From an uncultured Pelagibacteraceae bacterium (GTDB lineage: Bacteria > Pseudomonadota > Alphaproteobacteria > Pelagibacterales > Pelagibacteraceae), in NCBI GenBank assembly GCA_902624515.1, contig CACNYE010000002.1:1-55638 (forward strand): a stretch of 55,638 nt of DNA, in the 5' to 3' direction. Positions 650-9,178 of the stretch are shown here, in pieces. The translations under genes were made by a program, and so were the position numbers. Within the stretch, counting starts at the first letter, position 1. Each line of letters opens with the position of its first letter. Below the pieces are notes generated by a model that saw only the letters and a program-made list of their open reading frames with translations, was not told where the DNA came from and made no database searches.

Positions 650-701
650 TATTTATTTTTTTTTTAAAAAAATAAGTATTATTTATTAATGTGAATTTAA
701 T

Positions 702-778
702 GGTGGATTGGTCCGCCTGTAAAGAGCATGAGTCTCATAATTTTAAAGTTGGTATTTTGATCCTTTTTTCTAATACTT
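702..778 (+). pseudogene. Decayed tRNA-Met(CAT)-like remnant
   Basis: Ungapped alignment at constant 986-bp offset to the intact tRNA-Met at 1688-1764; anticodon loop CTCATAA, AGAGC and GATCC retained; acceptor stem no longer pairs. Confidence 0.7.
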
Positions 779-839
779 AAATCTAAAATTATTAATAAAT
801 TGTTATTTAAAACTTATTATATTTCTGTATATCAGATCT

Positions 840-1538
840 ATGCTTAAAAAATATTTAAAAATAAATATTAAATTTTTTCAACGACCTTATAATGCAAATA
901 ATGTTAATAGTTATATTTGGCGACTAAAAAGTCATATCTTAAATAAATATATTAATCCAAATAAGAAATTAAAAATTTTTGATTATGGTTGTGGAGAAGG
1001 TTCAAATTTACTTTATCTCTCAAAAAACTATCAATATGATTGTTATGGTGTCGATACATCAAAAAGTGCTATAAAAGTTTGTAAAAAAAAAAAAATTAAA
1101 AATGTACGTTTAATTGACAATAAAATTGAAGAGGAAGATGATTATTTTAATAAAAAATTTGATCTAATAATTTCAACAAATACTTTATATTATTTTGATA
1201 AATACGATCTCCAAAAAAGATTAAAAAGTTTTGAGAATATGTTGAAGCCCAATGGATATGTTTTTTTTACAATGGTTAGTGTTAAGAGTAAGTATTTTAC
1301 AAAATGTTCTAATAGAATAATTGACAAAAATTCATTAACGAAAGTTAATTATTTAAAAGATCAAAATTTTAAATTTAAGTCAAATTATTATCAGTATATA
1401 AATTTTGTGAAAAATGAAAAAGATTTAGTCTCTAAATTTAAAATTTTTAAAAAATTAAATGTTGGTTTCTACGATCAGAGTTTGCAAGATACTAGTGATA
1501 GCACTCATCATTACACTTTTTTTGGAAAAAGAAGGTAA
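840..1538 (+). CDS. Class I SAM-dependent methyltransferase
   Basis: Motif I KIFDYGCGEGSNLLYL, followed by YGVDTS and DLIISTNTLYYF. Confidence 0.8.
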   Translation: MLKKYLKINIKFFQRPYNANNVNSYIWRLKSHILNKYINPNKKLKIFDYGCGEGSNLLYLSKNYQYDCYGVDTSKSAIKVCKKKKIKNVRLIDNKIEEEDDYFNKKFDLIISTNTLYYFDKYDLQKRLKSFENMLKPNGYVFFTMVSVKSKYFTKCSNRIIDKNSLTKVNYLKDQNFKFKSNYYQYINFVKNEKDLVSKFKIFKKLNVGFYDQSLQDTSDSTHHYTFFGKRR

Positions 1539-1687
1539 ATAAAATCTTTAGTCTATTTTCTTTGTAAGGTTTTTAAGATTTGATGGATTTTTTTTAGGGA
1601 AGATAAATGTTATGCAAGTAGTATTAAATTTAGTCAAAACTTGTTTGTAAAAAAAAAATAAGTAGTATATATCATCGTGATTTGAAT

Positions 1688-1764
1688 GGCGGGGTAGCTC
1701 AGTTGGTTAGAGCGCGGGACTCATAAGCCCGAGGTCAGTGGTTCGATCCCACTTCCCGCTACCA
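1688..1764 (+). tRNA. tRNA-Met (anticodon CAT)
   Basis: GGCGGGGTAGCTCAGTTGGTTAGAGCGCGGGACTCATAAGCCCGAGGTCAGTGGTTCGATCCCACTTCCCGCTACCA; cloverleaf and encoded CCA recognisable. Confidence 0.93.
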
Positions 1765-1765
1765 T

Positions 1766-2293
1766 TTAATGCCCTGGAAATTCAATTAAGTTTTCTACTT
1801 TGTAATTTTTTTTTAATAGAGAATCACACCCACCCAAATCAAATAAATTTATCACAAAAATAAAAGCTGAAACCTTTCCTTTTGATATTTCAACAAGTTT
1901 TGCTGCAGCTTCAGCTGTGCCACCTGTGGCTATAAGATCATCAATAATTAAAACATTTTCATTTTCATTTATAGAGTCTTTGTGCACCTCAATAGTTGCT
2001 GTTCCATATTCTAGTTCAAAATCTACAGAATGTACGTCTGCAGGAAGTTTATTTTTTTTTCTTAACATTATGAAAGGTTTCTTTAAAACATAGGAAACTG
2101 CCGATGCGAATACAAATCCCCGAGACTCGATTGCAGCTATTTTATCAAATTGATAATTTTTTGATTTTTCAACTATTTGATTAATACATTCAGCAAAAGC
2201 TTTTTCATTTTTGATTAAAGTTGTTATGTCTCTAAAAAGAATTCCCTTTTTAGGATAATCAGGTATTGATCTAATATATTCTTTTAAATCCAT
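1766..2293 (-). CDS. apt: Adenine phosphoribosyltransferase
   Basis: PRTase signature VLIIDDLIATGGTAEAA; IPDYPKKGILFRDIT N-terminus typical of Apt. Confidence 0.95.
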   Translation of the reverse strand: MDLKEYIRSIPDYPKKGILFRDITTLIKNEKAFAECINQIVEKSKNYQFDKIAAIESRGFVFASAVSYVLKKPFIMLRKKNKLPADVHSVDFELEYGTATIEVHKDSINENENVLIIDDLIATGGTAEAAAKLVEISKGKVSAFIFVINLFDLGGCDSLLKKNYKVENLIEFPGH

Positions 2294-2334
2294 AATAATT
2301 TAAGTTATATAACTAAATAAATTATTTTTTTGAT

Positions 2335-3207
2335 ATGGCAAATAATAAATTAGCTATAATTGGTGGGAGTGGTTTATATGATGTTGAAGAATTTAAAAAT
2401 AGAGAACATTTAGATTTAAATACTCCTTGGGGCTCACCATCCGATCAAATATTAAAAACAAATTATAATAATAAAGAAGTTTATTTTTTACCAAGACATG
2501 GAAGAGGACATTTTATTTCACCTTCTAATATTAACTTTAGAGCAAATATTGATGCTTTAAAACAATTAGGAGTTACAGATATCATCTCTGTTTCTGCTGT
2601 TGGATCTTTAAAAGAAGATTTACCTCCTGGAAAGTTTGTTATTGTTGACCAATTTATTGATAGAACATTTGCAAGAGCAAAAACTTTTTTTGATGACGAA
2701 ATTGTAGCTCATGTTTCTATGGCACACCCTACATCTAATGGACTCATGAATGCTTGTGAGGATGCTATTAAAAAAGAAAAAATAGAGTACCAAAGAGGAG
2801 GCACATATGTTGTTATGGAAGGACCACAATTTTCAACATTAGCCGAGTCTAATTTATATAGATCTTGGAAAGCTGATGTAATTGGTATGACTAACATGCC
2901 CGAAGCTAAATTAGCAAGAGAAGCAGAAATTAGATATGCATCAGTTTCAATGGTAACGGACTATGATTGTTGGCATCCAGATCATGAAAATGTTGATGTA
3001 CAACAAGTAATAAAAGTTTTATTAGGAAATGCTGTTAAGGCAAAAAATATGATTAAGAACTTAATAGAAAATTTTGAAAATCATATTGATCCTAATGATC
3101 CAACAAATAATTGTTTAGATGTAGCTATCATTACTGCTCCTGAAAAAAGGACGCAAAAAACAAAAGATAAACTAAAAACAATTGCAGGAAGGATACTAAA
3201 TAAATGA
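2335..3207 (+). CDS. mtnP: S-methyl-5'-thioadenosine phosphorylase
   Basis: AIIGGSGLYDVEEF, FLPRHGRGHFISPSNINFRANI, GMTNMPEAKLAREAEI: MtnP family motifs. Confidence 0.93.
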   Translation: MANNKLAIIGGSGLYDVEEFKNREHLDLNTPWGSPSDQILKTNYNNKEVYFLPRHGRGHFISPSNINFRANIDALKQLGVTDIISVSAVGSLKEDLPPGKFVIVDQFIDRTFARAKTFFDDEIVAHVSMAHPTSNGLMNACEDAIKKEKIEYQRGGTYVVMEGPQFSTLAESNLYRSWKADVIGMTNMPEAKLAREAEIRYASVSMVTDYDCWHPDHENVDVQQVIKVLLGNAVKAKNMIKNLIENFENHIDPNDPTNNCLDVAIITAPEKRTQKTKDKLKTIAGRILNK

Positions 3208-4112
3208 AAAAAATTATAACAATATTAATTATCTTTTTTTTTAACACGAATGTGTTTGCTGATAAAATGACTAAGAGTGGATTTTTGACTAATAAAGTTA
3301 ATTATTTAAAAGAACAAAAAATAGATAATCCACAAAATAAAATTCTATTAATTTATAATCATGGTCAAACCACCCACGATGGTCCTTCTAATGATTGTGC
3401 ATGGAAGGGAGGAATGAATAATATGTCATCTTTAGTAGGAAAAAAGGTTAAAGATAAAGAGATAGTTGTTTACCTTTTTTGTACAGGCAAACTTAAAGGA
3501 GATGATTATAAAAGATTATGGAATAAAAAAAAATTTACAGAGCCATATAAAGGTAAGCCGAAACTCGAAAAGAGATTAGATGCAAATTTAAAACTTATTG
3601 AGGATTTTACTGCTCAGGGATTTAATAAAAAACTTATATTTTTAACTGGACGATCATGTGGTGGATGGATGACAATGATGTTGCTTAGCAGATATCAAGA
3701 TATTGTAGCTGGAGGTATTTCTTTTGTACCGGAATGTTATGGTCGTTTAACAAAAGCGTACAAAGTTAAAAAAGTTGGTGTGGAGGATGCTTTAAAAAAA
3801 TTTAAGGAAAAAGAAGGCCCTGGTCCAGCTAATATGAGACAAATGCAAATTGATGAAATTAAAAAAAGCCTAAATTTACCTGTCTTAGTCTTTACTCATC
3901 CTAAGGATCCATTTGGGGGATTAGTATCTGATTGGGTTGAAGAGATCTCTGGTGTTGAAAGAATAGTTATTTCTCAGGACAACAAGGTCAACAAAAAAAT
4001 CTGTAGTGTATGGGGAAAACCAATCAAAAATTATCATGATATGGACAGAGCAAATTGTTTTAGAGAATTTAATCCAAAAATTTTAGATTTTATTGCTTCA
4101 AGAATTGATTAA
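3204..4112 (+). CDS. Exported alpha/beta hydrolase-fold protein, function unknown
   Basis: N-terminal signal peptide (MKKIITILIIFFFNTNVFA); nucleophile-elbow-like GRSCGG (GxSxG); plausible catalytic Asp in HPKDPF and His in YHDMD; ATGA overlap with mtnP. Confidence 0.65.
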   Translation: MKKIITILIIFFFNTNVFADKMTKSGFLTNKVNYLKEQKIDNPQNKILLIYNHGQTTHDGPSNDCAWKGGMNNMSSLVGKKVKDKEIVVYLFCTGKLKGDDYKRLWNKKKFTEPYKGKPKLEKRLDANLKLIEDFTAQGFNKKLIFLTGRSCGGWMTMMLLSRYQDIVAGGISFVPECYGRLTKAYKVKKVGVEDALKKFKEKEGPGPANMRQMQIDEIKKSLNLPVLVFTHPKDPFGGLVSDWVEEISGVERIVISQDNKVNKKICSVWGKPIKNYHDMDRANCFREFNPKILDFIASRID

Positions 4113-5183
4113 ATGAAAATAGAGGGAAAAGAATATCGTACCATTTGGTTTGAAAACAATGTTGTAAAAATTATTGATCAAACAAAACTTCCACATCAAT
4201 TTATTATTAAAGATCTTAAAACAGTAAAAGATGCAATTAATGCAATCAAAGTAATGGAAGTACGAGGTGCACCTTTAATAGGAGCAACAGCTGCTTATGG
4301 ATTGGTTTTAGCTATTATCGAAAATAATGATCAATCATTTTTAAATCAATCAGCTGAAAGTTTAATTAGCTCAAGACCAACAGCTATAAATTTAAAATGG
4401 GCTGTTGATAGAATGTTAAAAAAATTATCAGGTGTAAATAGTGATAAGATTTTAGAAATAGCCTTGAATGAGGCAAAAGAAATTTGTGAGGAAGATATAA
4501 AGTTTTGTCAAAATATAGGATTAAATGGTTTAAAAATTATAGAGGAAATTTACAATAAAAAAAAAGATACAGTTAATATTCTTACTCATTGTAATGCAGG
4601 TTGGCTCGCAACAATAAATTGGGGAACAGCAACTTCTCCAATATACCATGCACATAAAAAAGGAATTCCAGTTCATGTTTGGGCTGACGAAACAAGACCA
4701 AGAAATCAAGGAGCTAATTTAACTTCTTATGAGTTAAATGAAGAGGGGATTAAAAATACAATAATTACAGATAACACTGGTGGTATTTTAATGCAAAGAG
4801 GTGAGGTTGATATGTGTATCGTTGGAACAGATAGAACTTTAGCCAATGGAGATGTTTGTAATAAAGTTGGAACTTACTTAAAAGCACTAGCGGCAAATGA
4901 TAATAATGTTCCTTTTTACGTAGCATTGCCGAGCTCTACAATTGATTGGAATATAAAAGATCATAAAGACATTCCTATTGAGGAGAGAAATTCAGAGGAG
5001 CTATCTCATATTGAAGGTATAGATGAAGATGGAAAGATAAATAAAATACAAATATATCCAAAGAAAAGTAAAGCAATGAATTTAGCTTTTGATGTTACAC
5101 CAGCAAAATATGTAACTGGATTAATAACTGAAAAAGGTATTTGTAGCGCATCAACAGAGGGGTTAAAGAAGTTATTTAAATGA
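4113..5183 (+). CDS. mtnA: S-methyl-5-thioribose-1-phosphate isomerase
   Basis: EVRGAPLIGATAAYGL, HCNAGWLAT, VWADETRPRNQGANLTSYEL, VGTDRTLANGDVCNKVGTY. Confidence 0.95.
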   Translation: MKIEGKEYRTIWFENNVVKIIDQTKLPHQFIIKDLKTVKDAINAIKVMEVRGAPLIGATAAYGLVLAIIENNDQSFLNQSAESLISSRPTAINLKWAVDRMLKKLSGVNSDKILEIALNEAKEICEEDIKFCQNIGLNGLKIIEEIYNKKKDTVNILTHCNAGWLATINWGTATSPIYHAHKKGIPVHVWADETRPRNQGANLTSYELNEEGIKNTIITDNTGGILMQRGEVDMCIVGTDRTLANGDVCNKVGTYLKALAANDNNVPFYVALPSSTIDWNIKDHKDIPIEERNSEELSHIEGIDEDGKINKIQIYPKKSKAMNLAFDVTPAKYVTGLITEKGICSASTEGLKKLFK

Positions 5184-5836
5184 AAAATTTAGATCAAAGA
5201 AATAAAATTATTAAATATTCTTTAAAATTAAATTCTACAAATCTTTCACCTCTTAGATCCGGCAATATATCATTAAGAGGTAGAGAGGATGATAAAGATG
5301 GATATTTAATTACTCCTTCTGGAAAAAAATATGAAACTTTAAAACCGGAAGATATTGTTTTTATGGGTTTAAAAGAAGAAGCAGAAAATAACGACTCAAT
5401 CAATAAACCTTCATCTGAATGGAGATTTCATAGAGATATTTACGTTAAAAAAAAAGACGCTCGAGCTATTGTCCACGCTCATTCTCCACACGCAACAGCT
5501 GTATCTTCACATGGAAAAACAATACCACCATTTCATTACATGATTGCACTTGCTGGAGGTGAGGACATTAAATGTGCTGATTACGCTACTTTTGGAACAG
5601 AAGAGCTTTCTAATAACATAATTAAAGCTTTAGAAAATAGAAGTGCTTGCTTAATGTCTAATCACGGCCAGGTTGCTTTTGGAAAAAATTTAGAGGAAGC
5701 TTTTGAACTTGCACAAGAGATAGAAAATATTTGTCATCAATACACTATTGCTCTAAAGTTAGGAAAGCCAAAGATTCTTTCTTTTGAAGAAATGATGAAA
5801 GTTTTAGATAAGGCTAAAAATTATAAAAAAGGGTAA
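5180..5836 (+). CDS. Class II aldolase/adducin family, probable 5-methylthioribulose-1-phosphate aldolase (Ald2-like)
   Basis: Zn-binding HAHSPHATA and SNHGQVAFG; ATGA overlap with mtnA; substrate inferred from operon context. Confidence 0.75.
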   Translation: MKNLDQRNKIIKYSLKLNSTNLSPLRSGNISLRGREDDKDGYLITPSGKKYETLKPEDIVFMGLKEEAENNDSINKPSSEWRFHRDIYVKKKDARAIVHAHSPHATAVSSHGKTIPPFHYMIALAGGEDIKCADYATFGTEELSNNIIKALENRSACLMSNHGQVAFGKNLEEAFELAQEIENICHQYTIALKLGKPKILSFEEMMKVLDKAKNYKKG

Positions 5837-5837
5837 G

Positions 5838-6878
5838 ATGATAAAAGTTGGGGAGCATATTACTTTAGATATAATTGGAACTACTAAGGAATACGATCCT
5901 TCAGTTTATGAAAGAGTTATCAATAAAATTGCTAAAGCTGCAGACGTTACTATTCTTAATATTTCTAAATATAAATTTGAACCTCAAGGATTTACAATTT
6001 TAGCCTTACTTGCTGAAAGCCATATAAGCTTTCATACTTTTCCTGAGAAGGGGATTATAAGTTTTGATTTTTTTACATGTGGAAAAATTAGCCCTTCAAT
6101 AGCAATAGAAATTGTTAAAAATGAATTTGAACATAAAAGAATAGTCAAAAAAGAATTCAATAGAGATACTAGAGCATTATACCATGACATTTATAGTTCA
6201 CCCGGTCTTCAAAAAGCATACGTTGTTAATGATGTCTTAGAAGATTTTAAATCTAAAGTCGGTCAGCATATTGAAATTTTAGATCTCGAACAATTTGGAA
6301 AATCTTTATTTATCGATGGAGAAATTCAAGTAGCTGCTTCAGATGAACATTTATATAGCTCGACATTTGTTGGAGCAGGATTGAAATTAAACAAAAGCAA
6401 TGAAAGGGCAGCAATAATTGGAGGAGGTGATGGTGGAGTTGCAAGAGAATGTATTTCTAAAAAATTTAATTTCATAGATTGGTTTGAGCTTGATCCTGAG
6501 GTAGTAGAAGTTTGTAATAAACATTTAGGAGATATTGGTAAAAAAGCTATTGAAAAAAATTCGGTAAAATGTGTATGGGGAGATGCTTTTGAAAGTATCA
6601 AGTCAGTAAAAGATGATAGCTACGATCATATATTTGTTGATCTAAACGATGATCAATTTTGTATTGATTTAGCTGCAAAAAATATGGACTCGCTTGTTAG
6701 AATTTTAAAACCAAAAGGAGTAATTACCGCTCAAGTTGGTAGTCAAGATAAAAAACCACAACAGGTTGAAAATTGGTTAAATGTATTTCACCATCATTTT
6801 GGAAATACTAAATTATCAAGGATTTATGTGCCTAGTTTTGATTGTTCATGGAATTTTTCTTCATCGATTAATCATTAA
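5838..6878 (+). CDS. speDE: Fused S-adenosylmethionine decarboxylase (SpeD) - spermidine synthase (SpeE)
   Basis: SpeD pyruvoyl-type site LAESHISFHTFPE in N-terminal part; spermidine synthase motifs LFIDGEIQVAASDEHLY and IIGGGDGGVARECI in C-terminal part; single uninterrupted ORF. Confidence 0.9.
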   Translation: MIKVGEHITLDIIGTTKEYDPSVYERVINKIAKAADVTILNISKYKFEPQGFTILALLAESHISFHTFPEKGIISFDFFTCGKISPSIAIEIVKNEFEHKRIVKKEFNRDTRALYHDIYSSPGLQKAYVVNDVLEDFKSKVGQHIEILDLEQFGKSLFIDGEIQVAASDEHLYSSTFVGAGLKLNKSNERAAIIGGGDGGVARECISKKFNFIDWFELDPEVVEVCNKHLGDIGKKAIEKNSVKCVWGDAFESIKSVKDDSYDHIFVDLNDDQFCIDLAAKNMDSLVRILKPKGVITAQVGSQDKKPQQVENWLNVFHHHFGNTKLSRIYVPSFDCSWNFSSSINH

Positions 6879-7811: not shown

Positions 7812-8504
7812 ATGGAACTTCTAGCATTTGGAGATACTGGTTGGGGTGACGAGCTATTTCGTGCTACTCTAATGACAATAGCTGTATCAATTACATCAAT
7901 GTTAATTGGTTTTAGTTTTGCTGGAATTTTTACCCCGTTAAAGTTATCTAAATTTAAATCTCTTAATCTAGTTGCAAATATTTATACAACAGTCATCAGA
8001 GGCGTTCCTGAATTATTAGTCATTTACCTTTTCTTTTTTGGTGGAAGTGGAGCAATTATGTTTGTGGCCTCCATGTTTGGTTATAATGAATACATAGAGA
8101 TCAATGCATTTATCACAGGCTCATTTGCAATAGGTATTATTTCTGGTGCATATTCTACTGAAGTTTTTAGAGGAGCAATCCAATCAATTGATAAAGGTCA
8201 ATTCGAAGCTGCAAAAGTTTTAGGTTTAAGTAAATTTGCACAATTTTATAAGATTACACTTCCCCAAATGTTAAGACTTGCAATACCAAATTTAAGTAAT
8301 GTTTGGCAAATTACACTTAAAGATACATCTTTAATTTCAGTCACAGGCTTAGTCGAGATCATGAGGCAATCTTATATTGCAGCTGGATCCACAAGGGATC
8401 CTTTATTCTTTTATTCTTTTGCAGCAGTTTTATATCTGTTGCTGACTTTCTTAAGTATGAAATTGATAAACAAATTAGAAGTTAAGTATAGTAGGGGGTA
8501 TTAA
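7812..8504 (+). CDS. Amino-acid ABC transporter permease (HisQ/OccQ-like)
   Basis: Membrane protein with permease motif GAYSTEVFRGAIQSIDKGQFEAAKVLGLS. Confidence 0.9.
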   Translation: MELLAFGDTGWGDELFRATLMTIAVSITSMLIGFSFAGIFTPLKLSKFKSLNLVANIYTTVIRGVPELLVIYLFFFGGSGAIMFVASMFGYNEYIEINAFITGSFAIGIISGAYSTEVFRGAIQSIDKGQFEAAKVLGLSKFAQFYKITLPQMLRLAIPNLSNVWQITLKDTSLISVTGLVEIMRQSYIAAGSTRDPLFFYSFAAVLYLLLTFLSMKLINKLEVKYSRGY

Positions 8505-9178
8505 TGGATTTTGAATTGATGATTAATAGTTTTCCAAAGTTATTAAATGCTGCTGTTATAACTTTAAAACTTTTATCCGTATCTTTAATTGTAGGATTAT
8601 TCATCGGATTATTATTTGCAATTCTTAGATTAAATAAAAATGTTTTTATTAATAAATTTGCCTATGGATATTCATACATATTTAGAGGAACCCCACTTCT
8701 TGTACAGATATTCATTATTTATTTCGGATTAGGACAGATTGAATATTTGAGATCAACATTTTTATGGGTAATTTTAAAAGAACCTTATTGGTGCGCAATT
8801 ATTGCTTTTGCATTAAATACTGGTGCTTATACATCTGAAATTTTAAGATCAGCATTTCAAACAATTAAACCTGGTATAATTGAAGCTGGACAAAGCCTTG
8901 GTATATCAAGCAAAATTATTTTTTACAAAATTCAAATTCCAATTGCTATCAGACAATCTTTACCAGCTTACGGTAATGAAATTATTTTGATGATGAAAGG
9001 TACCTCTTTAGCTAGTACAGTTACATTAATGGATTTAACTGGAGTTGCAAAATATATAATTTCCACTACTTTTAAACCAATAGAAGTGTTTATTGTAGCT
9101 GGTGGAATTTACTTATTTATGACTTTTATAATTCATAATGTGATTAAATTTTTAGAAAAAAAATATAGCTTTAATTAA
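8504..9178 (+). CDS. Amino-acid ABC transporter permease (HisM/OccM-like)
   Basis: FRGTPLLVQIFIIYFGL and GAYTSEILRSAFQTIKPGIIEAGQSLG. Confidence 0.9.
   Translation: MDFELMINSFPKLLNAAVITLKLLSVSLIVGLFIGLLFAILRLNKNVFINKFAYGYSYIFRGTPLLVQIFIIYFGLGQIEYLRSTFLWVILKEPYWCAIIAFALNTGAYTSEILRSAFQTIKPGIIEAGQSLGISSKIIFYKIQIPIAIRQSLPAYGNEIILMMKGTSLASTVTLMDLTGVAKYIISTTFKPIEVFIVAGGIYLFMTFIIHNVIKFLEKKYSFN

Follow-up and report, generated by a model that had tools for sequence, protein, structure and literature searches.

How did a degenerate second copy of a tRNA-Met gene, upstream region included, come to lie 986 bp upstream of the intact gene? The question is raised by the window analysed here (the whole stretch of 55,638 nucleotides from an uncultured Pelagibacteraceae bacterium), in which a methyltransferase gene is the sole gene between the two copies (Table 1). 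SAR11 genomes are streamlined and thought to be poor in mobile elements; tRNA genes are well-known targets of integration. A preliminary description of the window, made from its letters, had interpreted the similarity as a segmental duplication and had proposed an old insertion or duplication at a tRNA locus.

The ungapped match between positions 671-778 and 1657-1764, at a constant offset of 986, was confirmed with 65/108 identities. When the same 108-mer was scanned over the whole window, the mean was 27.0 identities (sd 4.3), the next-best placement reached 46 on the forward strand and the reverse strand gave at most 47. In 3000 dinucleotide shuffles of 601-900, the test by which the preliminary description had proposed to judge chance, the maximum was also 47. 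The similarity extends upstream of the tRNA, as had been noticed, with 24/31 identities between 671-701 and 1657-1687, and it covers tRNA nt 1-63 (702-764; 35/63, shuffle maximum 29, p=0.0003). At tRNA nt 64-77 (765-778) it falls to 6/14, which is close to chance. On the left, identity continues a few bases beyond 671, to ~666, and on the right it stops at the GATCC of 761-765 (tRNA nt 63-64). Since the terminal 13-14 bases of 671-778 are at chance level, the true extent is ~666-765, and the 3' limit first proposed lay ~13 bases too far. The putative insert is flanked by a direct repeat of a partial tRNA gene (671-765 and 1657-1751). In a control scan with tRNA nt 1-63 over as much as 6 kb of sequence preceding tRNA-Met at ~95 loci, no placement in any direction exceeded 32/63 outside the undecayed fragments described below, a maximum that the window remnant surpasses. 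Chance resemblance, which a window of 71% AT might be thought to produce, is practically negligible against these scores. A further match in the window's own genome, on contig C27, was judged to be chance.

Table 1. Features of the tRNA-Met locus in the window, with the evidence for each.
Feature	Position	Strand	Evidence
Remnant: decayed tRNA promoter region of element type, AAAAAAATAAGTATTATTTATTAATGTGAATTTAAT	666-701	+	24/31 identities over 671-701; element-type promoter consensus
Decayed tRNA-Met 5' fragment (nt 1-64), putative attL-like scar	702-765	+	35/63 identities over nt 1-63; 3' limit (nt 63) as in fresh fragments of 8 genomes
Presumed element left arm / cargo leader	766-839	+	Position only; spacing from 732 to ATG = 108
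Putative cargo: class I SAM-dependent methyltransferase, 232 aa, intact ORF	840-1538	+	PF13847, E=1.4e-16
Intact tRNA-Met: promoter region of element type	1637-1687	+	Resembles the conserved right end TTGTTTGAAAGAAAAAAAATAAGTAGTATAAATC; promoter score 35/48
Intact elongator tRNA-Met(CAT), attR-like, putatively rebuilt gene	1688-1765	+	ARAGORN; Rfam RF00005, 62.6 bits
apt (adenine phosphoribosyltransferase-like), conserved right flank	1766-2293	-	Follows tRNA-Met by 0 to ~9 kb in most related loci

The two copies differ at 43 positions which, counted with the intact copy as ancestral, comprise 29 changes from GC to AT and 5 from AT to GC, bearing out the AT-biased decay already suspected. This strong bias argues against a retained function of the remnant, be it as a structured RNA or as an att site under selection. 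By inspection, G-U or A-U pairing could still form at several stem positions, and the anticodon loop CTCATAA is intact. However, the only tRNA-Met call of ARAGORN and Rfam was the intact copy at 1688-1764. The low-cutoff RNA-family search, which the preliminary description had put forward as a check, gave no match to the remnant on 600-1800 even with Rfam at E≤10. We consider retained function very improbable.

An interpretation of the remnant is offered by related genomes. At least 13 genomes of the same genus carry an undecayed 5' fragment of tRNA-Met (nt 1 to 49-63) located 1.0-4.5 kb upstream of the intact copy, with foreign cargo in between; fragment frequency in our set of 97 loci, which were picked by match quality, is not a population estimate. 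A pattern for tRNA-Met devoid of its normal 3' end, which retrieves near-exact occurrences only, matched in 8 genomes of the genus out of 399. In every one of them the fragment stops at nt 63, with the junction GATCC|CCTAAATT or a close variant, and each carrier has an intact, same-strand tRNA-Met 1.0-3.8 kb downstream. The ~60-bp non-tRNA arm located 3' of the fragment, CCTAAATTTCCTAATTAATTTAAGCAAACATAAATATTGGTCCACTGGTGGTCCACTGATAA (the GGTCCACTGGTGGTCCACTG arm; there is also a GATCACACATAGATCACAGTG arm), is nearly invariant across the eight elements. One of the eight carriers (G321) consists of one 1.2-Mb contig, a point against misassembly. Five more loci (L145, L160, L162, L163 and L164) have a fragment that ends at nt 49-57, and most cargo segments measure 0.9-3.8 kb. 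A promoter-like stretch, TTGTTTGAAAGAAAAAAAATAAGTAGTATAAATC, is conserved at the right end of the fresh elements, but in several genomes a different sequence precedes the left fragment. This pattern is expected if the element brings the promoter together with the 5' part of the tRNA.

Most of the elements also share a nearly fixed leader. Counted from the GACTC of the anticodon arm to the first cargo start codon, the spacing is +103 in L102, L103, L104, L105, L107, L108 and L163, +105 in L046 and +108 in L160, L162, L058 and L059, although the cargo is mostly unrelated between elements. The methyltransferase of the window also starts at +108, from the GACTC-equivalent at 732 to 840. The fragment limit, the spacing of the first gene and a promoter of element type before the intact tRNA all make the window fit the 5'-fragment type.

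In the fresh elements the arrangement can be read directly from the sequence. From the extent, promoter type, spacing and position of the window remnant, we infer that it has the same origin. Positions 671-765 are probably the decayed attL-like junction left by the site-specific integration of a small element at tRNA-Met, and not a plain segmental duplication; the remnant is most likely the scar of a ~1-kb mobile element which carried a methyltransferase gene and inserted into tRNA-Met. The insertion half of the preliminary proposal, with the methyltransferase lying between the copies, is strengthened by the fresh insertions of the same layout in relatives.

Such an integration would probably proceed as follows. 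Beside a crossover core, a small circular element would carry a promoter for tRNA-Met and the first ~63 nt of the gene. A tyrosine recombinase, probably acting in trans, would recombine this circle with the resident tRNA-Met, the crossover falling somewhere from the anticodon arm to the T arm. At the right junction (1637-1765) a complete tRNA-Met would result from the promoter and 5' part of the element joined to the 3' end of the host gene, so that the promoter region 1637-1687 is presumably the contribution of the right end of the element. At the left junction, the old promoter and 5' fragment would be joined to the element arm and its cargo, here the methyltransferase, and this redundant fragment would then decay towards AT.

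The alternative of an ordinary small duplication supposes that tandem duplication or gene conversion gave rise to a second functional tRNA-Met with its promoter, that the methyltransferase arrived by an unrelated event and that the left copy became a pseudogene. It would account for a homology that covers promoter and tRNA together, and it is favoured by the absence of a visible element arm beside the remnant: at 766-839 a similarity search for the arm was not significant and global alignments gave p=0.05-0.32. An unrecognisable arm is expected after such decay and leaves room for this alternative. However, a tandem unit of 986 bp should repeat one of its flanks, and neither is repeated (21/81 identities at 560-640, 45/122 at 779-900). 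The absence of any repeat outside the promoter and the 5' part of the tRNA speaks against plain duplication, as do the limit at nt ~63, which is the fixed limit of the fresh 5' fragments, and the +108 spacing of the start codon, both as found in the integration products of relatives. We therefore regard the duplication half of the preliminary proposal as rather unlikely. The ORF to the left of the remnant, described there as autotransporter-like and truncated, does encode an autotransporter beta-domain (PF03797); its open end is due to the window beginning at base 1 of the contig and is not biological.

The promoter of the remnant is itself of the element type, which suggests that an earlier insertion had its right end at the remnant. 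This likeness (24/31), implying at least one earlier integration, could also indicate that successive, different elements left the remnant and the intact tRNA, and that the methyltransferase is perhaps resident DNA trapped between independent events. Tandem arrays are indeed known at this tRNA (L110 and L112). Yet the methyltransferase occupies exactly the position of a first cargo gene (+108), in the sole slot for cargo that separates the copies, and we hold such a composite history to be distinctly unlikely. In both arrays, two segments of 1.1-1.9 kb, each closed by a 3' tRNA-Met fragment, lie downstream of one intact tRNA-Met (L110: 8046, 9955, 11024; L112: 7897, 9585, 11303).

Integration of a single element remains our preferred reading, and the methyltransferase would be its cargo. 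The closest relatives of this protein are 51-53% identical, occur in 2 of 300 genus genomes and in neither case at tRNA-Met; it was absent as cargo from the fresh tRNA-Met elements found, which counts against this reading, and as a marker of co-transfer in genome contigs it gave one distant Parcubacteria match only. Cargo functions were assigned from Pfam alone. At locus L115 (G221:C5), a 53%-identical methyltransferase (8401-9102, minus strand) lies ~80 bp from the 3' end of the tmRNA gene (8014-8324); tmRNA is another common integration site. The window remnant is much more decayed than every other detected tRNA-Met fragment, and none of the detected fragments is intermediate in decay between it and the fresh elements, a further point against.

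Two of the fresh elements encode a tyrosine integrase of family PF00589, of 328 aa in L163 (4486 bp) and 314 aa in L164 (2554 bp). On its gene content, L163 is a candidate autonomous member. It spans 2032-6517 of its locus (G245:C12), adjoins the 5' tRNA-Met fragment and also carries a 529-aa ORF with no Pfam match. The other elements showed no ORF resembling an integrase, with part of their ORFs scanned against Pfam; the putative window element, in which the methyltransferase stands alone between the copies, has none, and its own genome (~60% complete) gave no PF00589 match, which also counts against integration. The window genome and the eight nt-63 carriers yield 0 to 3 such matches each: zero in G061 (90% complete) and one, a 325-aa frame, in G321 (99% complete). 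These few matches are probably housekeeping Xer proteins. The recombinase would be supplied in trans.

In the IMG/VR contig L120 (4605 bp) tRNA-Met adjoins a PF00589 integrase, and contig L122 (4.9 kb) carries tRNA-Met and a 424-aa ORF closely similar to that of L120. This content indicates that tRNA-Met is used or carried by integrase-encoding elements resembling phages or satellites, and both contigs are possible satellites or helpers of the site. L120 and L122 have several small ORFs in common, and in each tRNA-Met lies near the 424-aa integrase-like ORF. Exact patterns for the element arms had no match in IMG/VR. When a phage database was searched with the tRNA region, the matches were mostly tRNA genes encoded by phages.

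The comparison of synteny around tRNA-Met, recommended in the preliminary description, supports insertion. Across same-genus loci the distance from tRNA-Met to apt ranges from 0 to ~9 kb and the interposed genes vary by genome, which marks the site as a hotspot. A 3' fragment of tRNA-Met downstream of the intact copy was also found, in 6 of 399 genomes by a pattern again limited to near-exact matches. These fragments, with those of L047, L119 and L149, span about nt 24-31 to 76 and lie 0.86 to 2.3 kb from the next copy. We tentatively propose a broader model, which we hold to be possible although somewhat short of probable. In this genus tRNA-Met may be an exchangeable cassette site for minimal integrase-less elements of ~0.9-4 kb, with constant ends, a constant leader that sets the first cargo start codon 103-108 nt from the anticodon arm, and a built-in promoter and 5' half. 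Recombinases acting in trans, from phages or satellites, would insert them successively, each delivering one or few accessory genes (protease, HNH, helicase, methyltransferase) to a streamlined genome, the essential tRNA always being rebuilt. A ~1.5-kb serine-protease-like segment with tRNA-Met-derived ends, with no intact tRNA-Met nearby, is found in L058 (8244-9746) and in L059 (from 8383), apparently as an ectopic insertion.

The elements follow the same principle as tRNA-integrating elements and tycheposons, from which their polarity, size and lack of an integrase set them apart. As in tRNA islands and prophages, tRNA-derived direct repeats flank the insert, one junction restores the tRNA and some members encode a tyrosine integrase (here L163, L164 and L120). 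In mycobacteriophages the usual att core measures 30-45 bp and includes the 3' half of the tRNA (PMC10865867), so that the element supplies the 3' end; here, in contrast, the elements supply the promoter and the 5' 49-63 nt, the broken copy lies upstream, and most elements are of 0.9-3.8 kb with no integrase seen. According to PMC10872708, tycheposons of Prochlorococcus and Methylophilaceae are likewise marine cargo elements bordered by tRNA genes, tRNA-Met included, but measure 4-200 kb and carry a xerD tyrosine recombinase, whereas ours are mostly <4 kb and without recombinase; by the definition given there, the window element (~1 kb, no recombinase) is not a tycheposon. Phages with tRNA-dependent lysogeny also target an essential tRNA gene and secure a functional tRNA, which they encode as a separate complete gene (PMC10865867), while here the functional tRNA would be rebuilt at the right junction. 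The SAR11 regions HVR1-4 share strain-variable gene content with this site, HVR4 being flanked by tRNA genes and HVR2 containing an integrase; the consulted portion of PMC2217521 does not describe a small element or att structure at tRNA-Met/apt. Our searches of an open-access library gave no description of integrase-less elements of such small size which restore a tRNA by means of a promoter and 5' half that they bring along.

If this interpretation is true, a recurrent slot at an essential tRNA, occupied by minimal integrase-less elements, would explain part of the variable gene content, and the fragment end and arm would provide a simple sequence signature for counting gene gain and for tracing cargo to its helper phages. 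Past insertions overlooked by annotation would be recorded in decayed scars like that at 671-765. At L160, the fragment that an element has left behind (2540-2612, minus strand) was called as a second tRNA-Met by ARAGORN, and genome annotation may therefore overcount tRNA-Met.
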